59,741 bases of DNA from a virus. A model generated the notes under the pieces. It was given only the letters and a program-made list of their open reading frames with translations, did no database searches and had not been told where the DNA came from. Below, piece by piece: positions 6,693-46,073 of this stretch. The first letter of the stretch is position 1, and each line of letters begins with the position of its first letter. The stretch spans positions 45,544 through 105,284 of IMG/VR virus record IMGVR_UViG_3300030101_004148; one strand, given 5' to 3'. A program made the position numbers and the translations under genes.

Positions 6693-7268
6693 TTACCAAA
6701 TTGCTATACAGTTTTGTCTTACTGCTGCACTTGTTCCAGTGCTCATTAATTTTGTTACTTGTACTGGTAGGTAGTTTCCTACTTTGAAGTTTTGGAAAAC
6801 AACTGTATTACCTTGAACAACCTTTACTGCCACATCTACATATCTTGGGTCAGCTGTTCCAACACCAGGGTCAGCAGGGCTTGTTGCCTGTATATCCTGA
6901 ACTATGGAAGCATTTGATCCAACATATAATAAACATCCAGAGGATGAATCAATTCTTTGTTCAAATATAGGGCCTCCTTGGAATATAGTGTAAGTTTCCC
7001 CAGAAGTCATTATATCTGCGCTTAGAACTAAGATGGTTGAAGTTTCTACTTCTGTTACTGTAGCTACTGTTAAATCTGTGTCATTATAAACAATATCCCC
7101 TACAACTACATTAGAAAAGTCTGCACCAACGTCAACTAATTTATTCGCTGTTGTTGCTGTGGTAACTCCTGTCAGCTGAGGAAGATTTGGATAAGGTATT
7201 GGTATTGAATCGCTGGCTATTACTCTTTGTGCTAAGCCAGTGTTTACGGTAATTTTTGGATATGCCAT
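6693..7268 (-). CDS. Beta-rich virion protein with Ig-like insert module (191 aa)
   Basis: Starts MAYPKITVNTGLAQRVIAS. Residues about 35-95 form a module, NKLVDVGADFSNVVVGDIVY to SADIMTSGETYTIF, that recurs inside the connector-like protein at 45111-46073. The C-terminal part (KVVQGNTVVFQNFKVGNYLPVQVTK) is typical of phage decoration or fibre proteins. No membrane segment. The start is preceded by the TAACCCT-containing leader shared with two other genes. Probably a capsid-decoration or tail protein. Confidence 0.55.
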   Translation of the reverse strand: MAYPKITVNTGLAQRVIASDSIPIPYPNLPQLTGVTTATTANKLVDVGADFSNVVVGDIVYNDTDLTVATVTEVETSTILVLSADIMTSGETYTIFQGGPIFEQRIDSSSGCLLYVGSNASIVQDIQATSPADPGVGTADPRYVDVAVKVVQGNTVVFQNFKVGNYLPVQVTKLMSTGTSAAVRQNCIAIW

Positions 7269-10467: not shown

Positions 10468-12081
10468 TTAAGATTTAATCCTTGCGTGTGTTACTATGGC
10501 GTTTGTACTTAGAATCGTAGAGGCAACGCTGCTTGAATTTAGCAAAGCGTTTTTAGTTACTTTGAGCGGATCAATTATACCTATGGTATACATATTTCCA
10601 TACTCCTCTTCTTTTACATCAAACCCATAATTATATTTCTGTAACTCTCTAAAGTCTTCAAGTCTGTTTTCAATCTCTGTTTTATCGAGTCCAGAATTTT
10701 CAATGATTTGTTGCATAGGCGCTCGAATGGCTGCCTTTACTATTTGCATTGCTGTTGAATAGTCTTTATCGTGAGACAATAAGCTTTTTAATTTGAATGA
10801 TGCGTTATACAAAGCAAGCCCTCCACCCGGAAGTATACCTTCCTCGAGTGCGGAACGCACTGCACATACCGAGTCATCGACTCGGTCAAATTTTTCTTTT
10901 TGCTCCACATCACTATTACCTCCAACATAAATACATCCGATAGCACCAGCTAAGCTGGCGATTCTTTCGCTGATAAATTTTCTATCAACTTGTTCCGCTG
11001 TATTTTCTTTGGCTTCTTGTAATTGTTTGATACGCTCTTTTACCTCTTCAGTTGGTTCAGCGTTTTTAATTAAGACTGTGTTGTGTTTACCTGCAATAAT
11101 TTTATCTGCATGACCTAAATCATTTATGTTAAGTAATGACAAGTCATCACCGGTAGCTTCTGAAAAATATTTTGCACCTACGGAAAGCGCTATGTCTTGC
11201 ATCAGCTCGTGTTGTTTATAACCAAATGAGGGTGCTGAAACATTGCAAAGCTTTAAGTTATTTCTCATTACGTTTGCTGCTAATGTATTTACGACATTAG
11301 GTGAACAGTTTGCAATTATTAAAAGCGTTTCGTTATTTTGAATGACCGGCTTTAATACATTTTCTATTTGTAATATATTGTCTATGTCGTGGTCACAAAC
11401 TAAAACTTTTACATTTTCATAAATACACTCATCTTTCTTTTGATTATTAATAAACAAATTAGAAGTGTAGCCTCTATCTATTTTTATTCCGTTTGTAATC
11501 TCTGCATAAGTCTCGTGGTTTTGAGATTTCTCAACTGTTAAGATTCCGTCTTTACCAACCTTCTCGTAAGCCTGGTGAATTATCGAGCCAATCTCTGAAT
11601 CATTGTTGGCAGAAATTTTAGCTACGTTTAATAAACTCTTTTTGTTTATCTTTTTAGAATTTTTTTCTAACAACTTAATAACTTCCTGCACAATATCTTG
11701 TATATACCTAACAACTTGTGTGGTGTTATTAGATGATGAAATAAATTGTGTTCCAGCTTTCATAAAGGCTTCAGCTAAAACGATAGCTGTAGTGGTTCCG
11801 TCTCCGGCAGAGTTTGCAGTTCTGGTTGCTGCATCTTTCATCATTTGTATTGCTAAGTTTTCGACTGGATCATCCAAGTATATTCCTTTGGCTACGGTAA
11901 CTCCGTCTTTGGTAATTGTAATTCCTCCTAAATGTTCGGGTGATTCAATAAGAACTGTGTGGCCGCTTGGGCCGAGCGTACTTTTTACTGCTTTCGCAAT
12001 ACTGGTAATTCCTGAAATAAGTTTCTCTCTACCGTTTGTACCGAAATGTAAGTCTTTCGGAATATATCCTTGTTTTGTCAT
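10468..12081 (-). CDS. groEL: GroEL-like chaperonin, 60-kDa class (537 aa)
   Basis: Near full length (GroEL about 548). Diagnostic ATP-binding and hydrolysis motifs are present: STLGPSGHTV near residue 35, ITKDGVTVAK, SAGDGTTTAIVLAEA near 90, ISANNDSEIG and VDDSV-AVRSALEEGILPGGG, including the catalytic Asp of the VEDAL position. The C-terminus ends HARIKS without the GGM repeat tail, as in several phage chaperonins. It probably forms a ring that folds phage structural proteins. It is followed by a 52-aa gene and groES. A TATCTTTA element lies at 12105-12112, 24 bp upstream. Confidence 0.95.
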   Translation of the reverse strand: MTKQGYIPKDLHFGTNGREKLISGITSIAKAVKSTLGPSGHTVLIESPEHLGGITITKDGVTVAKGIYLDDPVENLAIQMMKDAATRTANSAGDGTTTAIVLAEAFMKAGTQFISSSNNTTQVVRYIQDIVQEVIKLLEKNSKKINKKSLLNVAKISANNDSEIGSIIHQAYEKVGKDGILTVEKSQNHETYAEITNGIKIDRGYTSNLFINNQKKDECIYENVKVLVCDHDIDNILQIENVLKPVIQNNETLLIIANCSPNVVNTLAANVMRNNLKLCNVSAPSFGYKQHELMQDIALSVGAKYFSEATGDDLSLLNINDLGHADKIIAGKHNTVLIKNAEPTEEVKERIKQLQEAKENTAEQVDRKFISERIASLAGAIGCIYVGGNSDVEQKEKFDRVDDSVCAVRSALEEGILPGGGLALYNASFKLKSLLSHDKDYSTAMQIVKAAIRAPMQQIIENSGLDKTEIENRLEDFRELQKYNYGFDVKEEEYGNMYTIGIIDPLKVTKNALLNSSSVASTILSTNAIVTHARIKS

Positions 12082-24315: not shown

Positions 24316-24637
24316 TGATTATAAGGTTGAAGAATTTTTTCTTGAATCAATGGGTAAACTACCCTTATCTTTAGCCTTCGCTATATCTGTTTACTTAGAT
24401 GAGAACTTGCCAGAACTTAAAGAAAACCTATTGACTACACATATTTTAGGCGGCAGAATAATACATAAAGATTCTCCGTTTTATTTTGTAGTAGAGATAC
24501 TTTACGATGAGGATAAAGTTCTGACATTTACAGACATTATGGAAATAGATATGGACGAGTATTTAGATTTAATGAACTTAAATATGTATATAAAAACCAA
24601 TGGACAGAGCAGAGCTACTACTACAAATTACGGGTGA
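24284..24637 (+). CDS. Hypothetical protein (117 aa)
   Basis: The start at 24284 (MDLQLKHIKDSDYKVEEFFL) avoids most overlap with the VRR-NUC gene; the frame is open further to 24197. Acidic, alpha/beta, with HILGGRIIHKDSPFYFVVEI and a MEIDMDEYLDLMNLNM helix. The end overlaps the start of the DnaA-like gene by 38 bp. No family recognised. Confidence 0.45.
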   Translation: MDLQLKHIKDSDYKVEEFFLESMGKLPLSLAFAISVYLDENLPELKENLLTTHILGGRIIHKDSPFYFVVEILYDEDKVLTFTDIMEIDMDEYLDLMNLNMYIKTNGQSRATTTNYG

Positions 24638-25061
24638 GGTATTTTCTATACCGGATATAAAATCAAACAGAAGACAAATCAAATACATTCAAGCCAGGGC
24701 TTTGATGTACAGGCTATTAAGAAATACTTTGTACATGACTTATCAAAAGATTGGAAAGTTATTTGAAAAGAATCACGCAACTGTTCTTCACGCCTACAAT
24801 GAGTTTCCATATATGTTAAAACATGACCCGTCTTTGGATGAAAAATATACATTAATTAAGAGGCTTTGGTTGGGTGATGATAATATTGTTACAGAGAAAA
24901 AGGGTATTGAATACTATAAAAAGCAAAACAAAATTTTGGTAAATCAAAATATTTTGTTAAATTCCCGTGTTACTCTATTAGAGCTAACTATTCAAAAACT
25001 TGAAAATAAGCCAAACGAAGACCATAACTGCAATTTAGGGAAAGACAGTACAAATGGATAA
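24600..25061 (+). CDS. DnaA domain-IV-like protein with C-terminal coiled coil (153 aa)
   Basis: Residues about 20-85 resemble the DnaA box-binding domain: SNRRQIKYIQARALMYRLL (R-R-I-ARxxxMYL), TYQKIGKLFEKNHATVLHAY (IG-xFgxRDHxTVLHA) and a following basic helix. No AAA+ ATPase precedes it. The C-terminal half (GIEYYKKQNKILVNQNILLN) is a coiled coil. It may act as an origin-binding or replication-control protein, together with the paralogue at 17897-18202. Confidence 0.65.
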   Translation: MDRAELLLQITGEVFSIPDIKSNRRQIKYIQARALMYRLLRNTLYMTYQKIGKLFEKNHATVLHAYNEFPYMLKHDPSLDEKYTLIKRLWLGDDNIVTEKKGIEYYKKQNKILVNQNILLNSRVTLLELTIQKLENKPNEDHNCNLGKDSTNG

Positions 25062-25577: not shown

Positions 25578-25803
25578 CTTTTTTGTGCTGCACCAACTCT
25601 GAGCATTTTTCATAGTCTTCAATACCAGAAAAATATTCTATTAAAACATCAAACACATCATCTTGCATAGAAACCACAGGTAATGTTGGGTTAAATATAA
25701 ACGCAGTTTGGTCATCTTTCTCCAGCATTTCTTCATAAGAAGACTTGCCAGTCAGAACGCTGTAGCTGTCCATCATACATTTGTGTTGGTTTAGTTTCAT
25801 CAT
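25471..25803 (-). CDS. Hypothetical protein, end of the minus-strand late block (110 aa)
   Basis: Starts MMKLNQHKCMMDSYSVLTGK; contains SSYEEMLEKDDQTAFIFNPT and FDVLIEYFSGIEDYEKCSEL, which look like a small helical phage protein. The last 35 residues lie opposite the convergent early gene and read less protein-like, so the functional part may end near residue 75. ATG shares a base with the stop of the giant gene. Confidence 0.5.
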   Translation of the reverse strand: MMKLNQHKCMMDSYSVLTGKSSYEEMLEKDDQTAFIFNPTLPVVSMQDDVFDVLIEYFSGIEDYEKCSELVQHKKVNSFCNSISPLEAYKNGRLASQQYGNQKGKNISNL

Positions 25804-28800
25804 TATTGTAAATCTGCTGGTACACTTCTTTGACCTCCGCTTCTTTTTAAATCAGCTGGCACACTTCTTTCAGACTCACTTCTTCTTAAATCAGGCGGCA
25901 CTCTTTTCAGGTATTCTTCTTCCCATTTCTTAACTTGCTCAGCGGTTGGTGGCCTTTTTCCAAATCTTTCTTTTATTATCATTCTTCTTATATCTTTATA
26001 AAAAGGTATCAAACCAAAATTTCCTAAAGCCTCTATGCTCATTCGATTTGTAAGCTCATCCATAGCTCTTTGTTGTGCCTCAGGCGTTTTTCTTGTCAGC
26101 TTTCGGGAACCAAGTATTACGCTTCGCTCTGCGGTTTTAAACAAAGGTGCGTAAGGCCCAGCGAACAGATATAAAAACTTTCTAACAGGATCCTCAAAAT
26201 CTTCCATTTGGAATTGATTAAACGTAATAGCGTGTTTGTAAGGATTATATTCCTCGTTGTTTCTTAGGTCTGCAAGTAATGGTTCATTCAGACCATACTC
26301 AAGTGCAAATGCTGGTAAAGCATTTGGTATATTACCAAAAGAACCTCTTGTAATAAGCTGAGTTATAGCACCTACCAGTTGTCTTTGAATTAACAATTCA
26401 AAGTCTTCCTCTTTGTCTTCATCTTCAATTCCTAAAAGCTCTGTGTCTAATAATTGTGTCATAGCTGTATATAAAACCATATACATACTCATTCTCATTG
26501 TTACACCAGTCAGCAAGCCTAAAGCCTGTCTCTTGTTTAGCTCACCCTTTCCGTTCATATATATTGCATTTACAGCTCTTCTTGCTGTGTTGTATTCAAA
26601 TAAAGTAAATCTTGCCATATACCCATTCGCCAATCTATACATATCTTTTAAACCATCTTTTCTTCTAATATTTTTCTCTACACCTTCAAAAGGATTTGTT
26701 GATGTTGTAATAGTAATACTAAAATCATCGGCAGCATTTCTTGCCCTATCTCTTGCCAATCTATATTGTTCATCAGCAAGAATACCTTTACCTTCGGCAA
26801 AATCCCTTAAATCTTTTACTTTAATTTTTATTTCTTTGCCATTTATGTCTTTAGTGGCTTTGGCAAATGCTTTTGCAAATGCTCCATAGTATAAGGGTCT
26901 TGCTAATATCTGGTCTGGCCCGGACATAAGTTTTTGTGATACATAATTAAATGCTTCCCTCATTTGTGCAGGGCCTAAGCCGTCAAGTTTCCCAAGCTGG
27001 TTCATTATGGCGTTAACTGCTTCTCCCTGACCTTCTCTTGTTTTAATAAAATCACCATAGTTATCATACTTACTCTTTATTGTGCTTTCATCAAACAATT
27101 TTGTGCCTTGAGAAGAATCAAGTCTATTTAATATTTCCAAGCCTAAATGTCTGTCAACATAAGCAAACTTTCCGAACTCCTTTATTCCTAAAGCTGCTAT
27201 ATCAGGAGCTGCCACCATCATAGACATATTTGCTCCAAGTTCAGCTGCTGCTCTTGGTGCTGAGGCTAAAGTAGCTTGATAGCCATAACGAGCTATCGCA
27301 GCGGCCGGAGATTCTTCGCTTAGTACGCCCAAACTATTTATGTATATTGCGTCATCTGCTATTTTTGTTGATTGTGCCAAAGCAGTCACCACAGCTTTTC
27401 GTATATCAGTGGACTTCATATCTTCATACTTTGCAGTCAATTTATTAAGAGTCCTTGCTACTCTTCTATTAGCTGGTGTCATATAATAATCCAATAAGGT
27501 CATTTGCGCACCTCGTAAGGCTGAAGAAAACGGATTAAAGCTAATTGCCTTGGAACCAGGTGTTCTACTAATTAGATTGCCTGCTTTCGTTGTTTCCGAA
27601 TTAATATACTTATCCTTCATCTTAACATCCGTCTCTTGTAAAAATGTCTCATTACCAACGACTTGGTTGTGGCTATAAGAATTTAATAAATCAACTCTGT
27701 TCCCGTGTACAACCGATGAAAGATAAAGAGCTTTATCCGCAAATGATCCATTGACTTTGTCTAATATTTTCTTTGCCTCTTTCATTCCAGGAGTAAAATC
27801 ATCCATTAGTTTTTTATAATTTACACCTTTATCTGTCACGTATTTTTCCCTAAGGGTTTCTAACTGCTCAAGATTTTTTCCTTGTGCGTATTTGCTTTCG
27901 TCTTTAATAGTTTTGTCTAAAAACTCTTCAGCGGGTGGTGCTACTTTATTGTAAGTGCCATCTTCTAATTTATTAGACTCTGCTATTTCATAAAGCTGTG
28001 CAAGTCTTATCATCTTACCTCTGTAAGATATTTTATTTTTATCTTTAATTGTTCCGCTCAGCTTTTTCATGGCTGAATCTACATCTGCTTTTATCTTAAT
28101 AAATTCTACTTTAGCTTGTTCAAAAGCTCTTGACTTTGGCGCAACAACATTATTATATACAGCTTTATTATTAAAGTTACCTACAACCTCATCAATAAAT
28201 GCTTTTGGGTTAGATCGAATCCTATCAATTTCTACCCCCGCCTTGACAGTTCTGGATCTTGATGGTGTCTTGGTGATAGCTAATTTTATTTTTCTTAGTA
28301 TATCTCTTTGTTTTAACAACCATGGTCTCTCTTTGATTTTATCAATTCTTTTATCAAGTATATCAAGAGCGTTATTACTTTCAACATCAAGCTGAAGGTC
28401 TAATGCGTTCTTTGAAACCACTCCTTGTCTTATATTATCTTTTACTCTGTTTAGTAATTTTAATTTAGAAACGTCAACGTTTCCGTCTTTCTTTTCTTTG
28501 ACTAAACCTTCAATTTCAGCTCTGGTTAATCTATTTAAAAACTTTGCAATCTTTCTGCTGTCTTCATCATTTAACATATTAATCTCTTCTGAGTTTAATT
28601 TATTATCTAAAACCTCGTTGACTTCTGCATCTACATCTACTTCTTTTACTTCAGTAGATTTGCCAACCTCAGCGTCAACCTTGTCAACATTTTCATTAAC
28701 AGCGTTAATAATTTCGTTAGCTCTTTGCATATAAGAGTTTACGTTGTCGGTAAGATTTAACTCTTTACCTGTCGAAAAATCCTGAACTAATTCTAAATAC

Positions 28801-31800
28801 GAATCGAGTAACGGCTCAGGAACCGCATACTGACTAAAAGAGAAAACATCTTGCAAGGCTGTAAATATATCTTGCTGTACTGCACCGGTCTTTTGTCTTA
28901 CACCTTTTTTGGCTTTTCTTCTTTTAGCTAATGATACTGAATTATATTTTTCAGCAAGTTCGGCTTTTGATAATACTTTGTCTACAAACTCTAATACATT
29001 TTTTAAATTTGAAGGGTTTGATAAATCTCTTGTGGCTCTAATCTTATTGATTATAGCTGTTAGCTGAGAGCCTTTGATTTTAGTAGCTCCTTTTCCTAAT
29101 GTTTTAATTTCTCCTATTAAAGTCTTAAGACCTTCCTTTTGTGCAGCAACACCTTTTCTCGCTGCTTTAGCCTCTAATTTAATTTGGTCAACTAAAGCGT
29201 CCTTTTCATTTACCGTAATCTTTTTAGGTTTTATACCTAATACCTTTTTTGGTGAAGGAGATGGTTTCTTTTTTGTCTTAACATCTACATTTCTTGCTTC
29301 AGCTCTTGCTTCATCAAAAGCTCTGGCTGCCGCTTCTACATTAGGCATACGGTTTGGATCTACCGAAAGAACAGCCTTTATGTTTCTTGGTGTAGGTTTC
29401 AATCCTGTTAATTCTGTAAACCTGGACTCTAAATCTGAAAGAAACTCTTTTCCAGGGAGGTTTGATTGTATAAATTCATTGATAGCTTTTCTGTTCGGGA
29501 AGTTTGAAACCAAATCTATTACATCGTTAGTGTCTATATTCGCAACACCTTTCTCTTCACCAATTACATCAGCCCAAGCATCTTCTATATTAGCACCTTC
29601 CTTTTCAACCCATATCCTTGATACATTGGTTTCTTCTGGTCTGGTTCCAGTCATGTCTATCCAGGACTTTCTTGAAAATGTAATAATTGGTCTACCCTCT
29701 GGCATTAAAGCAGTTAAACCTGTGTCAGGAAATAATGTGTCTAAAAATTGAGCGTCTGCTTTTTGTTCTCTTACCATATTTATAGTCTCTGCAACCTCTC
29801 TTACATTGCCTGATGAAACCACATCCGCAACATAATCTTGTCCTGTTACGGTCTCAGGCGTAGGTTGAGCTACATCTTTTGGTTGCGCTCTTTTTGAAAC
29901 CATTTTTTTAATAGCTTCAGCTTGTTTCTCATTTTTTTCTAAGGCTAATATGTTTCTTCCTGCATCCAATGCGCCTGTTACTGTCGAACCACTGCCTGCA
30001 AATGGATCAAACACTAAAGCTCCTTTTTCTGTAGACCTTTCAATTACAGCTTGTAAAAACTCTGAAGGTTTAGAGGTTGGATAACCGCCTTTCTGCGGGT
30101 GTTTGAAAGCATAGTATTCATTAAGTCTGGTTCCTTCGTTTACCTTACCGCTTTTCGTAAATGAGAAAACATATTCAGAAAGAACAGTACCTCCAACTTG
30201 GTGTGGCGTTCCTGTGTTGTATAGTTTTTGAAATGTAGCTACACCAGCAGATTGTAAATCTGTATCGTTTAAGCCGGTTAAGTAATTTGAAACAACATCT
30301 TGCGTTCCCTTTTGTGCAGAAATCATAAATATTAAAGGAGAGTTATCTGTCTTTAAAAGTTTTTCTGCGTCTTTAACAAACCCAGCAAACTCTTCAGCTG
30401 ATATTTTAGCGAAGTCAGCAAAATTTCTGTTACCACCCGTTTGACCTGGGCTATCATAAGGTGGGTCTAAGAATATCATATCGAATTTTACTCCTTCTTC
30501 AGCTAATTTTTTAACCTCATTCAAAGCGTCAGCTGCATGGATAACAGCAGCTGTTTCTCCCTCAGCTGTCTTAATTGTATAAACACCCGCAGCAACTCTT
30601 TTTATTTCACCAGTCTTTGCTCCTTGTCCTAATATTCTTCTCACAGTAGGGGCTGGCAGACCTGAAACCTCAGTTATTTCTTTGATTGATGCCTTGTCTC
30701 TTTTACCTAATATTTCAATTACTCTGTCTTTCTGAGTTAACTTTGGTTGGCCAGCAGGTCTCTTATCTTCAAGTATTTGAGCTTTTTCACGAGCAAGTGC
30801 CGGTGTGTCAGGGGTTACTTTGTCTGCTCTTTTTCCTGCGTTTACATCTAAAATATTTTTTAGATAATATTCTTCAGCAGCTTTAGTTTGAGCTGGAGTT
30901 GCTTTTTTCTTTGTTCCCTTTAATGTTACATCTTTAATCGAACCATCAGGCTTATAATTAATTTGTACATTACTTTGTCTACCTGTTTTAGTTGGAACCA
31001 CTGTAGGTTTCTGAACATCAACTTGTTGTGTTAAATTTTCAAAAGGAACAGAAGGCTGGGTTGGTCTTTGAATTGGAGCTTCTACTAAATTGGCAACTAC
31101 CGTAGTGGTATTTGTGTTGTTGTCTTTATCATTAAAAGTTACTACTACATCTGCTACATTACCTGCTTCTGACTCTCTAACCTCCGTAACTTCAATACTT
31201 TGTAGTGTGGATCCTTCTTCAAGATTTTCTTGTATATTACTTCGTTCTTCAGGTGATATAATGTACTTATTTCCCAAAGCAAGTTGCTCGTTCAGAGCTG
31301 ATTTAAACTTGGTAGTTTTTACACCCCCCTCTTCAACTACTGTCTCTACTTGCGTTTGCGCTTCCGGGCTGTTCGCAATTTCAGTTTCGACTTGGGTCTC
31401 ACCCTCTGGGGCAACTTGCCCCGTGGTGTCTCCTTCTCCCACTGCTTGGCTATCTCCGGGAGATTCTTGTACATCCACTTTCGCTGCGCTTGACTTTTGA
31501 ATGGCATCTGCTTTTTCGTTTATCTGTTGTTCAGTCGGGTCAATTATCCCTTCTGCTTTTAATTCATCTAATGCTAATTTACGAACTTCTTGGGTACTTT
31601 GTTGAGGCGCTTTAAAGTAATCAGGACTTCTTAGTACCATTTTACCATCCACAACTTCGTATATATCATAGTTACTAATGTCTCTTGCAGGAGTATTTGG
31701 TTTAGGTAGCACTATGCCTCTGCTCTCTTCAACAGTTTCTCTGTTTATAAAACTTTCATTAGGCTGCAAGTCAATAGACTGTATAGTACCTGGTTTTGAA

Positions 31801-33959
31801 ACTAAAACAAAACCACCTTCTATATCAGAAACTCTATTGCCAAATACTCCACCTTGTTGAAAGTTAGGTGTTTGTCTATTATCATTTCCTATTTTAAATT
31901 TACCTTCACCTCTTTCATTAACAGTACCTTCGACAAACTCATTAATATTTTCATTTGTACCAGTAATTTGACCGCTATTTAGCCAGCTTTTTATAGCTTC
32001 AATACCTCCTTTTTTCTTTCTTGAATTGAATATTGTTTTATGCGTTATCACATCTGGCCCATATATTTTTGCAACATCAGTAGCTTCAATAGTTTGACTC
32101 TCTTGTACATCCACTGAAGTAGGTGTCGTTTGTGGTTTGTTATATATTTCAGCTATCTCATTATTGATTTCTTTTCTTCTAATTCGATTTACTTCTAACT
32201 CCATGTTGCCAAGGCTTTCTTTCTCATACTCCAACTCAATCAATCTCTTTCTGTCTTCACCTATAAACCTTGATGGTGTTTCGCTTTCTAAAACAGCTTT
32301 TCTTTGTATCTCATCAACTATACCGCTCATCGCTTGGTCATTCGTAACCTCAATACTCATTTTCTTAAGTTGTTGAGGAGTAGCAGACAACACGAATATT
32401 TCCATTGTTTTTTGAGTTACTATATCCCCATTAATCTTATATTGTGGAATGTTAAAACTTGTGCCGTCTAACTTATTGGTGTTTTTAGCATCTTGATAAG
32501 CAGTCAGTGGAACAGATATTATAGTACCAGGAGCTGCACCTATCGTTTCTAAAAATATTTCTCTTGCATCTTGATCTTGGTCAGCTGCAACTCGTGCTAA
32601 TGATTCTCCTATACCTCCTAATGCCATTTCTTCAACACCTGTTTCTAATACCCTTCTGGTTAAAGACTGCTGACCTCTAATATTTCCACCTCTAAAAAAT
32701 TTTTTAGCTTGTTTTGCAACCTCTTTACTTCCGCCTTTGATACCAGCTTTTATAATTGGCTTACCAAATGCTGTTCCTGCTCCTAAAAGTAAAGCATCAA
32801 CACCTGCAATAGTTCCACCCCTTGCCATAGCTCTATTTCTAATTCTTTGAACTGCCTCTGGATCCCCTAAAAGTTCTTTTATACCTTCAGCATCCAAAGG
32901 AAGATTTTTCTTATCAAGCTCTTCTCTTAAAAATTCTGTGAAAGACATAGCTATTTCTAAACTCCCAACTGCTCCAGCTATCGCTCCTCTTGTTGCTCCT
33001 ATTTTTGCTCCAGCTATTGCTCCAGGCCCAGCTCCTACACCGCCAGCGAAAGCTCCCACTGTGGCTCCTACACCAGCTCCTACACCAGCTCCTACACCTG
33101 AGCCAGCTGCTGCATAGGATAATACGGTAGGGTTAAGCATGGAGCTTATACTCTTAACTATAACCTCTGGTGCAACCGTAGGGCTTTTTAAAAAAGCTAA
33201 AATTGATGCACCAAAACCGCCAAAACGTGGATAAAATTTTTCGTAATCGCTGTTGAAGTCTGCCATTTCTTGGCTTTGACCTTGATTGTCCATAGCCCTA
33301 ACAGCTCTAACATATTCCTCTAAGTCTGCGTCTGATATTGTAGAGCCTTTTAAAAAAACCTCTATTGCCTCATCAACTGAAGCTCCTTCAGTTCTACCTC
33401 TTTGCCATGCTCTTACCATATCGCCAAGAAAATCTCCTTCGCCACCAAACATAGAAACACCTATGTTGTCAAAAAAGTTTGGCGCCTCTACAACTTGAGT
33501 TATTGGAGCGTCACCTTCTCTAACTAAATCAGTTGGTACATTTCTTTCACCAACCTCTCCAGGCTGTTCCATTTGTACTGTAATTACACCTTGATTATTT
33601 ATGTCATCTTGCTGTTGCTGGGTGTCAGTCTCTACAACCTCAACTTCTTTTGGTGCATCAACACCAACAGGTTGCTCAGGAGCGGGGCTTTGTGATAATC
33701 CCGGTGAAGATAATGCTTCGTCTGCCGGTGTAATAGAACCCGTAGTACCCACCGGAGAATCTCCACCCGAAGGATCGCTTATTGTTTTTTTTTTTAAGTT
33801 CACTGTCTTTTTGAACTCCTCAAGGTCGGCAAAAGCGCCCTCTTGCATAAGCTCAAACAACTCTTCGTGACTCAAGCCTTCAGCAAAAGACAAAAACTCT
33901 TCTTGGGATTGAAAAGCTCCCTCTTGTAGTAAATCATATAATTCTTCAAGTTCAAACAT
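25803..33959 (-). CDS. Giant polyvalent ejection protein with winged helix and beta-class DNA methyltransferase (2718 aa)
   Basis: Third of three internal-protein genes. N-terminus has two copies of an EELxxLxQEGAFxxxEEF repeat (residues 5-48) followed by a Gln/Pro/Val linker. Residues about 281-336 are a Gly/Ala-rich membrane-like zipper. Around residues 1070-1125 there is a winged helix (ASIKEITEVSGLPAPTVRRI). The methyltransferase spans about 1140-1360: MIFLDPPYDSPG near 1164 (motif IV), then DPFAGSGSTV near 1319 (motif I), the IV-before-I order of beta-class N6A/N4C enzymes. The C-terminal third is helical with hydrophobic segments (RMSMYMVLYTAMTQLL) and ends in three VPxDL repeats. This resembles DarB-type or polyvalent proteins ejected with the DNA that protect against host restriction. 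Other domains, possibly including ones not recognised, remain. Confidence 0.8.
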   Translation of the reverse strand: MFELEELYDLLQEGAFQSQEEFLSFAEGLSHEELFELMQEGAFADLEEFKKTVNLKKKTISDPSGGDSPVGTTGSITPADEALSSPGLSQSPAPEQPVGVDAPKEVEVVETDTQQQQDDINNQGVITVQMEQPGEVGERNVPTDLVREGDAPITQVVEAPNFFDNIGVSMFGGEGDFLGDMVRAWQRGRTEGASVDEAIEVFLKGSTISDADLEEYVRAVRAMDNQGQSQEMADFNSDYEKFYPRFGGFGASILAFLKSPTVAPEVIVKSISSMLNPTVLSYAAAGSGVGAGVGAGVGATVGAFAGGVGAGPGAIAGAKIGATRGAIAGAVGSLEIAMSFTEFLREELDKKNLPLDAEGIKELLGDPEAVQRIRNRAMARGGTIAGVDALLLGAGTAFGKPIIKAGIKGGSKEVAKQAKKFFRGGNIRGQQSLTRRVLETGVEEMALGGIGESLARVAADQDQDAREIFLETIGAAPGTIISVPLTAYQDAKNTNKLDGTSFNIPQYKINGDIVTQKTMEIFVLSATPQQLKKMSIEVTNDQAMSGIVDEIQRKAVLESETPSRFIGEDRKRLIELEYEKESLGNMELEVNRIRRKEINNEIAEIYNKPQTTPTSVDVQESQTIEATDVAKIYGPDVITHKTIFNSRKKKGGIEAIKSWLNSGQITGTNENINEFVEGTVNERGEGKFKIGNDNRQTPNFQQGGVFGNRVSDIEGGFVLVSKPGTIQSIDLQPNESFINRETVEESRGIVLPKPNTPARDISNYDIYEVVDGKMVLRSPDYFKAPQQSTQEVRKLALDELKAEGIIDPTEQQINEKADAIQKSSAAKVDVQESPGDSQAVGEGDTTGQVAPEGETQVETEIANSPEAQTQVETVVEEGGVKTTKFKSALNEQLALGNKYIISPEERSNIQENLEEGSTLQSIEVTEVRESEAGNVADVVVTFNDKDNNTNTTTVVANLVEAPIQRPTQPSVPFENLTQQVDVQKPTVVPTKTGRQSNVQINYKPDGSIKDVTLKGTKKKATPAQTKAAEEYYLKNILDVNAGKRADKVTPDTPALAREKAQILEDKRPAGQPKLTQKDRVIEILGKRDKASIKEITEVSGLPAPTVRRILGQGAKTGEIKRVAAGVYTIKTAEGETAAVIHAADALNEVKKLAEEGVKFDMIFLDPPYDSPGQTGGNRNFADFAKISAEEFAGFVKDAEKLLKTDNSPLIFMISAQKGTQDVVSNYLTGLNDTDLQSAGVATFQKLYNTGTPHQVGGTVLSEYVFSFTKSGKVNEGTRLNEYYAFKHPQKGGYPTSKPSEFLQAVIERSTEKGALVFDPFAGSGSTVTGALDAGRNILALEKNEKQAEAIKKMVSKRAQPKDVAQPTPETVTGQDYVADVVSSGNVREVAETINMVREQKADAQFLDTLFPDTGLTALMPEGRPIITFSRKSWIDMTGTRPEETNVSRIWVEKEGANIEDAWADVIGEEKGVANIDTNDVIDLVSNFPNRKAINEFIQSNLPGKEFLSDLESRFTELTGLKPTPRNIKAVLSVDPNRMPNVEAAARAFDEARAEARNVDVKTKKKPSPSPKKVLGIKPKKITVNEKDALVDQIKLEAKAARKGVAAQKEGLKTLIGEIKTLGKGATKIKGSQLTAIINKIRATRDLSNPSNLKNVLEFVDKVLSKAELAEKYNSVSLAKRRKAKKGVRQKTGAVQQDIFTALQDVFSFSQYAVPEPLLDSYLELVQDFSTGKELNLTDNVNSYMQRANEIINAVNENVDKVDAEVGKSTEVKEVDVDAEVNEVLDNKLNSEEINMLNDEDSRKIAKFLNRLTRAEIEGLVKEKKDGNVDVSKLKLLNRVKDNIRQGVVSKNALDLQLDVESNNALDILDKRIDKIKERPWLLKQRDILRKIKLAITKTPSRSRTVKAGVEIDRIRSNPKAFIDEVVGNFNNKAVYNNVVAPKSRAFEQAKVEFIKIKADVDSAMKKLSGTIKDKNKISYRGKMIRLAQLYEIAESNKLEDGTYNKVAPPAEEFLDKTIKDESKYAQGKNLEQLETLREKYVTDKGVNYKKLMDDFTPGMKEAKKILDKVNGSFADKALYLSSVVHGNRVDLLNSYSHNQVVGNETFLQETDVKMKDKYINSETTKAGNLISRTPGSKAISFNPFSSALRGAQMTLLDYYMTPANRRVARTLNKLTAKYEDMKSTDIRKAVVTALAQSTKIADDAIYINSLGVLSEESPAAAIARYGYQATLASAPRAAAELGANMSMMVAAPDIAALGIKEFGKFAYVDRHLGLEILNRLDSSQGTKLFDESTIKSKYDNYGDFIKTREGQGEAVNAIMNQLGKLDGLGPAQMREAFNYVSQKLMSGPDQILARPLYYGAFAKAFAKATKDINGKEIKIKVKDLRDFAEGKGILADEQYRLARDRARNAADDFSITITTSTNPFEGVEKNIRRKDGLKDMYRLANGYMARFTLFEYNTARRAVNAIYMNGKGELNKRQALGLLTGVTMRMSMYMVLYTAMTQLLDTELLGIEDEDKEEDFELLIQRQLVGAITQLITRGSFGNIPNALPAFALEYGLNEPLLADLRNNEEYNPYKHAITFNQFQMEDFEDPVRKFLYLFAGPYAPLFKTAERSVILGSRKLTRKTPEAQQRAMDELTNRMSIEALGNFGLIPFYKDIRRMIIKERFGKRPPTAEQVKKWEEEYLKRVPPDLRRSESERSVPADLKRSGGQRSVPADLQ

Positions 33960-33968
33960 AAATATTTA

Positions 33969-36122
33969 TTACTGATTTTTCCATCTTCTTATTGCCTCTA
34001 ACTTCTGTTTTGCCGGTGGTAATGTGTTAAAATTAGGGTCGTTAGCCACATCTGCTACAAAATCCGATAAAAGTTTAATGTTACCAAAAGCTGTTGGCTG
34101 TCTTGATTCATTGGCTTTAGCAATTATTTTATTCAGCGAGCTCTCTAAATCTCCAGTTAACACACTTAAATTGTTTGAGTCTATTCTTGCGTTTGTATTA
34201 TTCTGAGGTTTGTATTCATAAGTGAATATTAACTCTTCATTATTTGCGTTTTTAACAACATCACCATTTGCGTCAACAAGTTTAACTACAGTACCTTTAC
34301 CGGTCATCTCATTAACTTTCTGGTCTCCATCTATTACAATTCTTAAGCCGTCTCGAGTTAATTGAGCTTTTACTTCTGGTGGTAGATAGTCGGTAAAAAT
34401 TTTAGTAATGTGTTTATCTATTTTACTATCCGGCTGTAATTTAAATCCATTAGTGTCAAATTTATCATCAAGAAAAGCTTCTATTGTTGCGCTTTGGTTT
34501 CCTTGATAAGTTCTGGAGATATTTTGAATAGGTTGTTCAGAAACTTTATCTAAGAAAGCATCATCCCTTATACCTCCAAGTGTAAAGTTGTTTTTTTGAA
34601 TTAATTGTGATATTCTGTTTTCAGATAATGTTTGCTGTTGACCTTGTGGGCCTGGCGGCAGCAGGTTAGATGAAATCAAAGCAATTTCTTGAAGCGTTGA
34701 TTGTCTGTCTTCTCTTTCTTGTGTGCCAGGGTCATCTTGTCTTCCTGATTGTCTATTGATAGGCAGAGTATTTCCGTCTGCGTAATAAATAATAATATTG
34801 TCTTCAGTCATTGTGAATTTCAATATCCTTTTCGGGTCATTTGCTGGCAGTGACTGGTTTCTTATATCAACAAGGTTTCTTAGTTTGTTACTTGCTTGGT
34901 TAGTATTTGTATCAGTAAGAATAGTATTTAAATCTTGTATATAACCAAAATCTATTTGTTCTTGTTGAGTAGTCCTTTGACCAGTAGAGGTTTCTTTAGG
35001 CGGATAACCTAAAGCAGTAAGCTTTTGGGTCACCGTATTGTCTAATTGAGATATAAGCTGTTTTTTCACAGCTTCTTTTGCTTTCGCTAACTGGTCTGCT
35101 GTAAGCTCTACTTGAGGCAGTCCATTAACTACATTAGTTTTTATAAACTTATCAGTGCTTAATCCTGGATGCAATTTTTTAAATTCTGCCTCGGTTTGTG
35201 CAAACTCATAACCTAAACCCATTAAAACCTGAGCAGCGTTATCAGAAGTAAGACTATCACCTGTTATAGCTAAAACCTGCTCATCAATAAATTCGTCAAA
35301 TGTTCCTCCAATTCCTGTTTGACCGAATAAGTCTTTAAAGCTTTTAATTTGTTTTAACTGAGCTGCTCGGCCAGGCCCTGAGTAAGCGTCAACAGTTTCA
35401 TTAATTATCTCACCAAAAGTGTCTGTCACTCTTTTAGTTAAAGCCAGTGTGTCTTGTCTATCTTGTGTAAAATTAGTTAGGGTTAGTAAAGTGTTTGGAT
35501 TTACAAAGTTTTCAGGATTATCTATAGGGCTTGGAACAACAAACTTACCGCTTCCATCATCCACTAAGGTTACCAGCTCTAAATCACCAGTAGCTGCATT
35601 TGAGATGAGTCTTTTGTTTTGCAAGTTACCAAATGAAAATGCTGTGCCGTTCCAGTAAATTTCTAAATCAGAAGCAATTTGTTGTCCATCTTCTCCCAAA
35701 GCCAATCTCTCCATGGCTTCCTTATATTTTGCATCATAGGTTTTAGCTATATTGTTCATGTTAGCGTACCCATCTTTCTGGCTTTGCATGATAAGGGCGT
35801 AATCTTTTGGATCTAACAAACCTCTTCTAAGCAAGTTCATATTTGCTTGTAATATTTGTTTTGAGCCATTAGAACCATCAATAAGAAGTTTAGCTAATGA
35901 GGGGTCATCAGTGTCCTGAATTTTGGAAAGCTCTGATAATGCCGCTTGTGTATCGGCAGTTATTTGTGCTTTTTTAGCTTCCCTTTCATCTCTTATTGTC
36001 TCTAAACCAACGGTAAGAGTCTGCGCAACATTAGCCCAGTCGATTTGCTGGTCTTTAATATTACGAGAAGTATATAAAGAATACTTATTGGTAGCCTGTG
36101 GTCTTGAATCGTTTTCTGCCAT
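33969..36122 (-). CDS. Internal virion/ejection protein (717 aa)
   Basis: Starts MAENDSRPQATNKYSLYTSR. Long helical, Gln/Asn/Leu-rich, with no enzyme motifs or signal peptide, for example LADQLAKAKEAVKKQLISQL-type segments. Position between the 253-aa and 2718-aa genes matches T7 gp15-like core proteins that leave the capsid to extend the tail channel. Ends WKNQ, 10 bp before the giant gene. Function by position. Confidence 0.55.
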   Translation of the reverse strand: MAENDSRPQATNKYSLYTSRNIKDQQIDWANVAQTLTVGLETIRDEREAKKAQITADTQAALSELSKIQDTDDPSLAKLLIDGSNGSKQILQANMNLLRRGLLDPKDYALIMQSQKDGYANMNNIAKTYDAKYKEAMERLALGEDGQQIASDLEIYWNGTAFSFGNLQNKRLISNAATGDLELVTLVDDGSGKFVVPSPIDNPENFVNPNTLLTLTNFTQDRQDTLALTKRVTDTFGEIINETVDAYSGPGRAAQLKQIKSFKDLFGQTGIGGTFDEFIDEQVLAITGDSLTSDNAAQVLMGLGYEFAQTEAEFKKLHPGLSTDKFIKTNVVNGLPQVELTADQLAKAKEAVKKQLISQLDNTVTQKLTALGYPPKETSTGQRTTQQEQIDFGYIQDLNTILTDTNTNQASNKLRNLVDIRNQSLPANDPKRILKFTMTEDNIIIYYADGNTLPINRQSGRQDDPGTQEREDRQSTLQEIALISSNLLPPGPQGQQQTLSENRISQLIQKNNFTLGGIRDDAFLDKVSEQPIQNISRTYQGNQSATIEAFLDDKFDTNGFKLQPDSKIDKHITKIFTDYLPPEVKAQLTRDGLRIVIDGDQKVNEMTGKGTVVKLVDANGDVVKNANNEELIFTYEYKPQNNTNARIDSNNLSVLTGDLESSLNKIIAKANESRQPTAFGNIKLLSDFVADVANDPNFNTLPPAKQKLEAIRRWKNQ

Positions 36123-36131
36123 GCTTTAATT

Positions 36132-36893
36132 TTATGGTGTATAAAGTCCTTGAAATATGGAGTAATCAAACTGAGTTGGATTTTTTCTTTTCAAGAACCC
36201 TCTTGTATCTTTACCGCTAAAGTTTTGCGATGCAATTTTATCAATGATTTGCTCTCTTGATATTTGACCGCCTGCTTCAGCATAAACCTTATTAACATCT
36301 AAAGAGTCTGCCAGTTTACCGGCTCTTGCGTCACCACCTGATTTTCCATAGAGCGGAGCTAAACTTGCACCACTTTGTATTGCTTGCCCAACACCTTGTA
36401 TACCACTTTGTATTGCTGCCATCTCTGCCTGTTCCGCATCTCTTTTCATCATTGCTGCATCAGCTGCGGCTCCTACATCCATAGCTTTCAAGTCTTGGTT
36501 AATTTTATCTTTTGCCTCGGCTTTCATTTTCTCGTTTTCATAAATAGCATCTTGCATACCTATACGAGTTTGTTCTTGCGCTTGAGCTGTCGCAGCTTGC
36601 AAAGAACCAACACCAGCCGCTAATTGTCTGGCGTCTCCTTGCTGTAATGCTTCTAACCCTTGTTGTTGCGCCTGCTGAGTTTGTCTAAACTGTTCACCAA
36701 AAGCATCTAAAGGAACATTTAAATTTTCGTAAAAGTTTTTTTCTGCTTTTTGACGAGCCTCTGCCATTAATTTCTTTTGGTCAGCGGCTGCCTTGGCTGC
36801 TAATTTTTTTTGCTTTGCAGCCTGGGCAAATGACATACCTGCGCTACCAAGACCTGTTACAATACCTGTTACTGCTGCTGTTGTTACTGCCAT
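36132..36893 (-). CDS. Internal virion protein, T7 gp14-like (253 aa)
   Basis: Starts with a hydrophobic small-residue stretch (AAVTGIVTGLGSAGMSFAQA) followed by a long Ala/Gln/Lys helix (KQKKLAAKAAADQKKLMAEA) and Gln-rich repeats, with GVGQAIQSGASLAPLYGKSG near the C-terminal end. This layout resembles small ejection proteins that insert in the outer membrane. First of three internal-protein genes. No sequence motif is diagnostic. Confidence 0.55.
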   Translation of the reverse strand: MAVTTAAVTGIVTGLGSAGMSFAQAAKQKKLAAKAAADQKKLMAEARQKAEKNFYENLNVPLDAFGEQFRQTQQAQQQGLEALQQGDARQLAAGVGSLQAATAQAQEQTRIGMQDAIYENEKMKAEAKDKINQDLKAMDVGAAADAAMMKRDAEQAEMAAIQSGIQGVGQAIQSGASLAPLYGKSGGDARAGKLADSLDVNKVYAEAGGQISREQIIDKIASQNFSGKDTRGFLKRKNPTQFDYSIFQGLYTP

Positions 36894-42300: not shown

Positions 42301-44184
42301 TACGCTATTTTCTGGCGGAACAAAAACAGTGTTGTATTCAGAAACCAAAACAGTAGAAGCCCTGGCATATTCATCTAAGTATACAATACCTACCTCGAAG
42401 TCTCTGTTGCTATGTAAGGTAGACTTATCGCTATCAGCAGTAAATGCAGCTCGAGTTCTAATTACTCTAAAATATTCATACATATCCGTATTCTGACCTT
42501 GGTCAGTGCTGGTGTATTTCATAGCTAACATTTGTATTGTAAATGAATTAGATCCAGCACTTGTAGTGAGTCTAAAACCTTGTTGATTTGTGCTGTCGTT
42601 AACGCTACTTAGTGTTTTTGTAAAATTACATTGGTTTTGTGGGGCAACTAATGCGGCATTAAATCGGTCGGTTAGTGAAAAACCATCTGCCGCTGTTGCA
42701 ATAGGTTCAAAGTTTGTTCCCTCTACAGTCCCTATAGCATTTTCAAAATCAGTGCTTGTTAAAAAATCAAACACACTAACATAATCTTGAGTCAGTACTA
42801 CTGTAGCGCTAATCGTTGTGTCAGCAGATTTAAAACTATTGTTTGCTACAAAACAGGTGGTCGCTGTTGTGCCGTTTAGGGCTGCGTGTTCAAATCTTAT
42901 ATCAAATGTAAATTCAGCACCTGCTTTTAATTTACCTACCACATCACTCAAATCAAAAGTAGCAGCAGAATTAGGCACAGTAGTAGAGGCTGAAGGGTTT
43001 ATTGTATAAGCAATCCCATTGCTTAAACTTGCAATAGGAAGTGTTATGAAAGATAAATCTTCTGTAATTAGAGCTGTATCAAAATTAATTGCAATATCTT
43101 GTCCGCTCTCATTAGTAATATCAAAACCATCTGTATAATTTCCATACATTAATCTATTACTCATTATTGTTTGCGCCTGAGCTTTTAAAGGAACATTATC
43201 ATAGAGTCTTAATAATTCATCACTACCTATCACTGAATAGATTTTACTGTTAGTAAACACATATTCTTGATGCTGGTTATCACCCCAACCAAAGTCTTCT
43301 TTTTTAAATCTTTCAATTACATATATTGAATTGGTGTTTGAATCTTTGTATAATAAATCAATTTCAGTAACCCTATCGCTTCCTGTACTAAACTGCACAC
43401 GAGCTGCATTAAAGTTGTTTTCCATACCTGAATTATCATAATTTCTGGTATCAAACCTAAAGTTTCCAGGCTGAAATGCTGGATTGGTAAAAAGCGAAGT
43501 TGCGCTATACTCACCATTTTTATACCTATATCTATACGCAAAACTTATAAACCTGTCTTTTAAGTAATTTTCGCCACCGGCAGCCTGTAACAAAGTAAAG
43601 GTGGGGGCAGGTAGGGGGGTATCACCAACAGCGTCTTCAAACCCTGGTGGCTTTAAAACCACGGAAATATCTTCTTCTTCTATTTGGTCGACAGTGCCGA
43701 CAGGAAAAGGATAGTTTTCATTTACGTTTATTCTTCGAGGTGCGTTTTTATCATCAGTAAAAAATAAAAGGTTTTCTATTTTATCTACACCGGTAATTAA
43801 AAATTTTGGATCAAAACTTAGAACATCATAAGTTATGACATGATAACGTAATTGATTTAACTGTGTGTTAAAAGAAACAATAAAATCTAAAGCTTTTGCT
43901 TTTCCGTCAAATAGAGGGTCATGCACAAACCAATATATTGTTTCATTAGCTCCATCTTCAAACGCTCCGATACATACAGCACTGCTGGATATGTTTACAT
44001 TATCAAATTCTAATGTAGTAAGTTGAGTATTACCTCTACTGTTTTCAACAGCTCCTATTTCTGTGGTTTCAGTAGAGCCGAGACGCACGTTCATTGCATC
44101 TACATACTCTCCAGGTGGTAGTAGACGCTCATCGACAGATTTATTCATCCGCCCAAGTACGAAATTTGTTGTTACTATAGGCAT
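39400..44184 (-). CDS. Tail tube/stabilisation protein, gp12-like (1594 aa)
   Basis: Begins MPIVTTNFVLGRMNKSVDER followed by LLPPGEYVDAMNVRLGSTET and a GAVENSRGN segment, the pattern of tail tubular/stabilisation proteins (N-x-RL--GEY-DA-N--). Length is two to three times that of T7 gp12, with large beta-rich inserts. The C-terminus carries the domain YHNGSAALPVAGDIIYTS...NGLVLTVQNC shared with the neighbouring 427-aa protein. Position after two connector-like genes fits a tail nozzle role in podoviruses and crAss-like phages. Confidence 0.7.
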   Translation of the reverse strand: MPIVTTNFVLGRMNKSVDERLLPPGEYVDAMNVRLGSTETTEIGAVENSRGNTQLTTLEFDNVNISSSAVCIGAFEDGANETIYWFVHDPLFDGKAKALDFIVSFNTQLNQLRYHVITYDVLSFDPKFLITGVDKIENLLFFTDDKNAPRRINVNENYPFPVGTVDQIEEEDISVVLKPPGFEDAVGDTPLPAPTFTLLQAAGGENYLKDRFISFAYRYRYKNGEYSATSLFTNPAFQPGNFRFDTRNYDNSGMENNFNAARVQFSTGSDRVTEIDLLYKDSNTNSIYVIERFKKEDFGWGDNQHQEYVFTNSKIYSVIGSDELLRLYDNVPLKAQAQTIMSNRLMYGNYTDGFDITNESGQDIAINFDTALITEDLSFITLPIASLSNGIAYTINPSASTTVPNSAATFDLSDVVGKLKAGAEFTFDIRFEHAALNGTTATTCFVANNSFKSADTTISATVVLTQDYVSVFDFLTSTDFENAIGTVEGTNFEPIATAADGFSLTDRFNAALVAPQNQCNFTKTLSSVNDSTNQQGFRLTTSAGSNSFTIQMLAMKYTSTDQGQNTDMYEYFRVIRTRAAFTADSDKSTLHSNRDFEVGIVYLDEYARASTVLVSEYNTVFVPPENSVLKNKIQVSLQNFAPSWAKKYKFVVKPSKSGYESIFVNFFYNNPFDNVTHFKLDGDNQNKVKTGDKLVVKKDADGALSSLVEATVLAVEAQSSNFLNAEQELGEDSEQLAGLYMQLKVSGFNASIKEDSIIDYGEYRRSSKNDNDCRDEWTVSYPLYTFDSDNQTTSNYTIPGGSVIDLKFGFNRDSNNWGAPTRRAIFEKTFVAGQDYNDFRDWFTDTNIDLNNLNDTSGVEDEIMFFDGTVLTRAGGGGVDPQDDESTAKNAFNLPCTGRPFQMNVGFIQDTPGDVNSPLFFGVRCTGKGVDGVVGDRSMASFVEIVVQRADSTLVFETQPADAAEGIFFDASEAFDIVRDNSGVHLHQSGGTDDGQQNQTLTQDAVVNLNFMDCYAFGNGVESYKILDRLAGRSVVMGQRALAVSNQDFKEADRFASITYSGRFSFTSGVNNLNEFNLGLVNFQDLETSFGPIMKLHGRETDILCLQEDKISYVQVGKDLLSDAVGGGAVVSTPLVLGKQIARIEEYGISFNPESFVQWGNYMYFTDAKRLAVLRLGSAGQVGADLSIISDTGMRSWFRDQFITRLNTQKLGGFDPYMDEYVLSINDKEVPVPEPQLSCGVEINLSAITTAKDFTFVFGNIIGQGTINYNITGTAVITVLWNGVTTSSGSVSGSGSFTWNKTATSPSTAKITVTPTGSANVTFTPSCIPEVSITVIKALLNSPNDATKTTHLEYSWNDGVTFSPVDSDLGVLTTDSSTFSEYFSQTGVRSQGVFPYDGVDLTIRLNKVNNDTYDFIFPSDNFKYHSSNTLYANTVSDVNTLLGLATTIPNSDVSNPSPGLHQATVTNLSLPIGNQYLYIIYDLRTITGQLLCYDSDSGSEACCDCNFTCTAFSISAFAESITDACNSLLTNTNYHNGSAALPVAGDIIYTSSNCADSITGTVSVAQPGYYKINTSPNQYIDVGQNGLVLTVQNC

Positions 44185-45110: not shown

Positions 45111-46073
45111 TTAACTTGTTTCTTGTGATTCTGATATTTCTTGTGTTTGTCCAAACTTAACAACGTCTCCCTCTCTTATTTCTACCCCTATATACTGTAA
45201 TATTTTAGCTACCAAGTTTGGCTCGTCAGAAGCCGGAAGCTCAAAGTTTTGGAAATTAGCATCACTTGGATTGAATACTGGGTCTAAGCCAGACGTTTCA
45301 ATATAAGTCCACTGAGGAGCTAAAGGGTATCTAATATATTGAGCTTGCAAGGCGCCACCTGCTGTAATAGTGCTCGGATAAACAGTAATTGTGTTTCCAA
45401 TATTTCCAGGAGTTATGTTTGAACTTGCTCCGCCTAAAACATACGCTGGGTATTGTGTAGTGGGATAAGTTAAATTTGAACTCGTTAGGTAAAATATTTT
45501 ATTCTGATTTACTCTCTCTACCTCAGTAATATTATATTGATTGTAGATACTATATGTTTCGCCTACCGCCATTATATCAGCACTTATGGTTAAAACAGTA
45601 TCACTTACTATCGATGTTATATAGGCTGATGTATTATCCGTTGTATTTGTTATCAAATCACCAACAGCTACAGATGTTGTAAATGTTTGCGTAGCGTCTA
45701 CAAGATTGTTAGCAAGAGTAAGAGTGGTTGTTCCATTTACTTTTAGTGTCGGATAATAAAATATTTTATTTATAAGATAGTAGTCTTCTGGTAAATTATA
45801 CTGGTTATTTAAATTAGCAGTAGGTTGCGATAAATACGCTGTTGCTGAAAAAGCGTCTATAACTTCTTCTAAACCTTTTACTATATCGGCATAACCTGTG
45901 CCTGATACTCTTGAGTTTTCTTTGTTTATCCAATTATTATATTGGTAAAAATAATTTTCAAACAAGTCCATTTGAGCTTGAAGGCAATACAAATTAAAAT
46001 CTTGTGGTGAAATGTAGCCGTAGTTGTTTTTATTAGCTACAGCCATAACTGTATTTCTAACTGAGTTTATCAT
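45111..46073 (-). CDS. Connector/ring-like protein with inserted Ig-like module (320 aa)
   Basis: Starts MINSVRNTVMAVANKNNYGY; NLYCLQAQMDLFENYFYQYN and YNLPEDYYLINKIFYYPTLK look like head-completion or adaptor proteins. A module at about residues 115-175 (VDATQTFTTSVAVGDLITNT...SADIMAVGETYSIY) is nearly the one in the 191-aa protein at 6693-7268. The rest continues QNKIFYLTSSNLTYPTTQYP. It follows a terminator-promoter pair. Confidence 0.55.
   Translation of the reverse strand: MINSVRNTVMAVANKNNYGYISPQDFNLYCLQAQMDLFENYFYQYNNWINKENSRVSGTGYADIVKGLEEVIDAFSATAYLSQPTANLNNQYNLPEDYYLINKIFYYPTLKVNGTTTLTLANNLVDATQTFTTSVAVGDLITNTTDNTSAYITSIVSDTVLTISADIMAVGETYSIYNQYNITEVERVNQNKIFYLTSSNLTYPTTQYPAYVLGGASSNITPGNIGNTITVYPSTITAGGALQAQYIRYPLAPQWTYIETSGLDPVFNPSDANFQNFELPASDEPNLVAKILQYIGVEIREGDVVKFGQTQEISESQETS

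Follow-up and report, generated by a model that had tools for sequence, protein, structure and literature searches.

A giant putative virion protein of an uncultured short-tailed phage carries a winged helix and a beta-class DNA methyltransferase domain

The last gene of the morphogenesis operon of an uncultured phage, here called phage B, encodes a giant putative virion protein of ejection and polyvalent type. The middle of this protein carries a winged helix followed by a domain that profile, motif order and predicted fold identify as a complete beta-class DNA methyltransferase. We propose that the N- and C-terminal parts of this late-operon protein form a virion backbone and that its middle serves as a cargo slot, filled in phage B by the winged helix and a methyltransferase of presumed N6-adenine specificity. 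In the manner of podoviral ejection proteins and of the N4 virion RNA polymerase, the giant would be packaged inside the head and be ejected along with the genome. Its methyltransferase would then modify phage DNA before packaging, on entry, or both, and host restriction enzymes would be blocked; entry is the moment when the phage must beat restriction. For the B giant we infer packaging, ejection, catalytic activity, an adenine target and an anti-restriction role. We consider it probable, though with considerable room for doubt, that the giant is packaged, enters together with the genome and protects phage DNA from restriction by methylating it.

The window, the whole stretch of 59,741 nt that was analysed, comprises bases 45544-105284 of a 105,284-bp virus record. 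Two homologous gene sets are present within this record, mostly 64-76% identical over aligned DNA, and an internal 177-bp stretch inside a tail gene is repeated at the record end with 96.6% identity (record 43,695-43,871 and 105,108-105,284). One of the two genomes, sibling A, is 99.9% identical to a separate contig, IMGVR_UViG_3300020392_000031. The duplicate gene sets, the end repeat and the separate occurrence of A together indicate that the record consists of two joined genomes of sibling phages, and that the window is essentially phage B. Relatives of phage B found via the portal were Flavobacterium elemo phages, Cellulophaga phages such as phi38:1, Maribacter phage Panino and the uncultured MW202828. 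Phage B is an uncultured short-tailed phage of aquatic bacteria.

The gene for the giant (25803..33959, minus strand) begins 9 bp after a 717-aa gene. A preliminary description of this DNA, made from the sequence, had reported a 2718-aa protein at these positions, and we found an uninterrupted, ATG-started ORF of that length with no internal stops. The N-terminal backbone (residues 1-624; 32088..33959, minus) is common to sibling A, at 33% identity, and to MW202828, whose giant is matched by the N-region profile at 5e-12. It includes a Gly/Ala-rich stretch at about residues 286-345 and a marginal Pfam match to DUF6861. The C-terminal backbone (residues 1559-2718; 25806..29285, minus) is predicted to be nearly all-helical, with PHROG 32588 spanning residues 1857-2669. 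Directly before it lies a second cargo block (residues 1371-1558; 29286..29849, minus) that has no Pfam name. This block recurs, as an independent cargo block, in the sibling giants L037, L052, L053, L075, L079 and L094, which are without an embedded methyltransferase. The preliminary description had suggested that the flanks of the giant may hold more domains; a Pfam search recognised no further domain there. Searching viral contigs with the single full-length giant sequence gave no matches; alignment-based searches did give matches.

The methyltransferase domain (residues 1136-1360; 29880..30554, minus) was recognised by Pfam, by PHROG, by profile comparison with the PDB, by predicted fold and by its motifs. 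Pfam N6_N4_Mtase (PF01555) matches residues 1160-1352 with E=3e-18 and 67 bits against a cut-off of 26.7, and PHROG DNA methyltransferase families match the same residues down to 2e-18, so that the assignment lies well outside what chance would produce. Motif IV, DPPY, lies at residues 1165-1168 (30456-30467) and motif I, DPFAGSGST, at 1318-1326 (29982-30008), each within one residue of the positions given earlier (near 1164 and 1319), and a motif X-like PTSKP stands between them at 1294-1298. Beta-class enzymes have their motifs in this order, IV-X-I, and a DPPY motif usually goes with adenine as the target. The class proposed in the preliminary description is thus upheld by motif order and by PF01555, and the target is presumably adenine. 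Motif residues are retained across ten methyltransferase homologues. The preliminary description had also proposed a methyltransferase profile search of this region and had named the lack of a methyltransferase fold as grounds for abandoning its reading. A profile of the methyltransferase unit matched M1.HpyAVI, CcrM, RsrI and MboIIA in the PDB, with E-values down to 6.5e-15, and the fold was present in the predicted structure. An AlphaFold2 model of residues 1055-1375, made from a ten-sequence alignment (pLDDT 76.5, pTM 0.72), consisted of a winged helix and then the methyltransferase. Foldseek comparison of the model returned beta-class enzymes (M1.HpyAVI at 2.6e-12, CcrM at 8e-12, also RsrI), and its matches included many restriction-system methylases.

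The winged helix-turn-helix (residues 1073-1130; 30570..30743, minus) was assigned from the HTH_IclR profile, from the model and from a free homologue in L052 that starts at this point. In the single sequence the HTH_IclR match is weak (0.0056), and the profile is matched by eight of the ten members of the methyltransferase-unit family. The model shows secondary structure in the order H-S-H-H-S-S, in agreement with the earlier claim that a winged helix precedes the methyltransferase. Elsewhere in the 105,284-bp record there is no further PF01555 methyltransferase. No helicase was found among the Pfam matches in the giant chain; the SNF2-like helicase of the phage is a separate gene. Assignment as an RNA methyltransferase was considered and rejected: Cons_hypoth95 (RsmD-like) matches single motifs only, and the motifs stand in beta-class order.

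Sibling A is a natural control for the phage B giant. At the same locus it encodes a 2201-aa protein that aligns to B residues 4-625, 791-891 and 1559-2698 and is without the winged helix and methyltransferase. A conserved linker (residues 788-890; 31290..31598, minus), with the core DAIQKSSAAKVDVQESPGDSQAVGEGD at residues 818-844 (31428-31508), opens the variable cargo slot. Linker DNA is 80% identical between A and B; most of the remaining gene has no blastn match. The linker is common to about two dozen giant proteins, on both of the backbones described below. Its consensus, DAxQKSSTxxVDxQExxxDSxxVGEGD, is kept across giants with otherwise different flanks, and a similar string is present in the elemoC and MW202828 giants. 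The linker may act as a site of processing or as an anchor for recombination. In GC and GC3 the methyltransferase block resembles the remainder of the gene and thus bears no sign of recent import. The occurrence of sister phages that have no methyltransferase, or that have it as a separate gene, suggests that it is a swappable module protecting phage DNA.

Position and indirect homology make a virion role of the B giant likely. The operon order of terL, portal, further structural genes and giant ORF is common to phi38:1, elemoC, Panino and MW202828. The giant ends the morphogenesis operon, as in phi38:1 and elemoC, which agrees with the internal-virion-protein position assigned to it earlier. 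The GenBank record of phi40:1 describes the last two gene products, gp100 and gp101, as structural 'based on experimental MS/MS proteomics analysis', and gp101 of phi40:1 is 99.9% identical to gp101 of phi38:1. In the window, the 717-aa gene (33969..36122, minus) holds the position equivalent to phi40:1 gp100 and encodes a candidate partner virion protein; next to it is the gene for a 253-aa virion structural protein (phrog_13764; 36132..36893, minus).

The B giant showed no similarity to phi38:1 gp101 by blastp, by HMM searches with shuffled decoys or by hhalign; what connects the two is their position and a series of weak homologies. The elemoC giant is weakly similar to the B giant (hhalign E 3.7e-6). 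The C-terminal model of the B giant is all-helical and of low confidence; compared with a structural library, this low-confidence model matched the elemoC structural protein at 5e-11 as well as many phage proteins named for polyvalent-protein domains. TM-scores of these library matches were low, and we take the matches as supporting evidence only. The term 'ejection protein' in the preliminary description is thus partly supported: a positional equivalent, phi40:1 gp101, is present in virions, but no sequence homology to gp101 of phi40:1 or phi38:1 was detected.

The distribution of the unit, winged helix plus methyltransferase, was assessed at 80 loci gathered through the primase plus further loci gathered through the methyltransferase; the counts that follow are no unbiased frequency, since the methyltransferase itself served to find part of the loci. 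Giant ORFs formed 40 distinct clusters, some of them truncated and one an unrelated structural ORF of phage A. The unit was present in 9 of these 40 giants, on at least two unrelated C-terminal backbones: 1 of 15 with the C-terminal backbone of B, 5 of 15 with a second backbone and 3 of 10 others. Most siblings, then, are without the methyltransferase, and it is accessory in these phages. Embedded units lie mid-chain, usually downstream of a zincin HExxH motif. This zincin-like motif occurs in most second-backbone giants (L030, L033, L038, L043, L096, L097, L099, L100, L102), stands upstream of the methyltransferase wherever both are present, and is absent from A and B. A GNAT domain was found in one sibling giant. 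Two phages, L052 and L109, have the unit as a free gene of ~300 aa. In L052 the start codon (ATG) coincides with the beginning of the winged helix, the gene lies in the region upstream of the primase, and the record has no second copy of the unit. The polyvalent idea put forward in the preliminary description is in keeping with the zincin and GNAT siblings and with the methyltransferase as a solo gene. Among other domains, one weak case of free and embedded forms was seen, small ORFs of L079 and L052 against the L095 giant.

In a tree of the unit, the two free copies do not group, and support is weak at most forks; with few well-supported forks, no direction of transfer between free and embedded forms is claimed. 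The phage B unit sits on a long branch of 1.37 changes per column. The closest pair had a dN/dS ratio of 0.055, and most other values for which an estimate of dS was possible lay at 0.08-0.3; by this measure the unit is under purifying selection. Bacterial genomes yielded no close homologue and two partial matches in Lentilactobacillus, on which no host was inferred. It is quite possible, though rather less likely than not, that aquatic podoviruses related to Flavobacterium and Cellulophaga phages have repeatedly shuttled a methyltransferase gene between an ordinary gene and the cargo of an ejected protein, with the slot after the linker swapping virion-delivered counter-defence cassettes.

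The closest functional comparison is P1 DarB, a virion-carried protein that protects P1 DNA and for which an anti-restriction role is reported (PMC5512222, PMC12810830). Both would be large virion proteins with a DNA adenine methyltransferase, the virion role and the adenine target being putative for the B giant. DarB-type methylases, however, are of the gamma class (EcoKI/TaqI-like, NPPY) with LPD36 and a C-terminal SF2 helicase (PMC5512222), whereas the B enzyme is of the beta class (DPPY, IV-X-I), has an N-terminal winged helix and has no helicase in its chain. The B giant would thus be a functional analogue of P1 DarB and not a DarB-type methylase-helicase; the comparison drawn in the preliminary description is one of function and does not extend to class. 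In the polyvalent-protein survey of Iyer et al. (2017), methylases belong mostly to one gamma-class lineage, and CcrM, Cellulophaga and Flavobacterium are absent from the main text (PMC5512222). The B giant resembles polyvalent proteins in being a giant late-gene product among virion genes, with a cargo domain also found solo and with siblings that carry zincin HExxH or GNAT. It differs in having a single recognised catalytic domain, the winged helix and methyltransferase being all that was recognised. The elemoC giant and gp101 of phi40:1 and phi38:1 share its position as the last gene of a syntenic morphogenesis operon, but they are without a DPPY-type methyltransferase motif and have diverged almost fully from B in sequence. 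M1.HpyAVI, CcrM, M.RsrI and M.MboIIA share motif order, DPPY, an FxGxG-type loop and fold with the B domain; unlike it they are free enzymes, and they are only about 16-20% identical to it over the aligned region. The N4-type virion RNA polymerase, a giant multidomain enzyme in a short-tailed phage, is ejected with two partner proteins (PMC12633501). It is a precedent for how such a protein would work: the enzyme is different and no sequence relation is claimed.

The main rival to delivery of an active enzyme is that the methyltransferase acts in the producing cell only, where progeny DNA would be methylated before or during packaging and the carried-in protein would be inert. Through the fusion the enzyme would reach DNA in the course of packaging, the late-operon position of the giant fits such a role, and the free gene upstream of the primase in L052 can act in the infected cell only. 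A free enzyme would suffice for this, however, yet the unit is found repeatedly inside giants with at least two unrelated backbones, mostly beside a zincin motif, a type of motif for which a role in processing polyvalent proteins after injection has been proposed (PMC5512222). We therefore regard methylation confined to the producing cell as unlikely, and favour an enzyme that enters with the DNA to counter restriction. Against the favoured explanation we counted the missing direct match to phi38:1 gp101, the many siblings that do without the methyltransferase, and the lack of a partner nuclease.

An injected methyltransferase could instead mark host or phage promoters and shift early transcription in a CcrM-like manner, with the winged helix directing it to its sites. 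Two points speak for this: the fused winged helix, and a sequence and fold close to those of CcrM, which is a regulatory methyltransferase. The patchy presence of the unit in siblings is more typical of counter-defence than of core regulation, though, and the fold matches also cover many restriction-system methylases; we consider promoter marking improbable. Less probable still is a non-catalytic DNA-binding or structural leftover that helps to hold packaged DNA: the B copy evolves faster than the others, as its long branch shows, but DPPY, PTSKP and DPFAGSGST are intact in it, the corresponding motifs are kept in embedded relatives, and dN/dS is well below 1. That the fusion is an assembly artefact of a chimeric record is hardly credible and was rejected: the record does join two genomes at the 177-bp stretch, but neither site of that stretch lies within 25 kb of the gene, the ORF runs through without a break, and giants of eight further distinct phages, whose contigs were assembled separately, also have the unit embedded.

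With a virion-delivered role, the B giant would extend the set of enzymes apparently carried in phage virions by a second, unrelated class of DNA methyltransferase. Near siblings with and without the domain, plus a solo gene for the same enzyme, form a natural experiment, and the positional equivalents in cultured Cellulophaga and Flavobacterium phages make the idea testable. Should the cargo slot function as it seems to, a survey of its contents throughout the group would yield a catalogue of the enzymes that phages of aquatic Bacteroidota deliver on entry.

Elsewhere in the window, phage B encodes a GroEL (10468-12081, minus) and a protein with a DnaA C-terminal helix-turn-helix (24600-25061, plus). 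No tRNA genes were found within the window, and a promoter scan performed no better than on shuffled sequence. In two of the other loci, L102 (606-9863) and L023 (12265-18850), frameshifts break the giant ORF into overlapping pieces; these frameshifts may be sequencing errors or real. A small ORF at 6693-7268 (minus) matches the middle of the virion structural protein at 45111-46073 (minus) over ~87 residues at 44% identity, and MW202828 has a similar small ORF.
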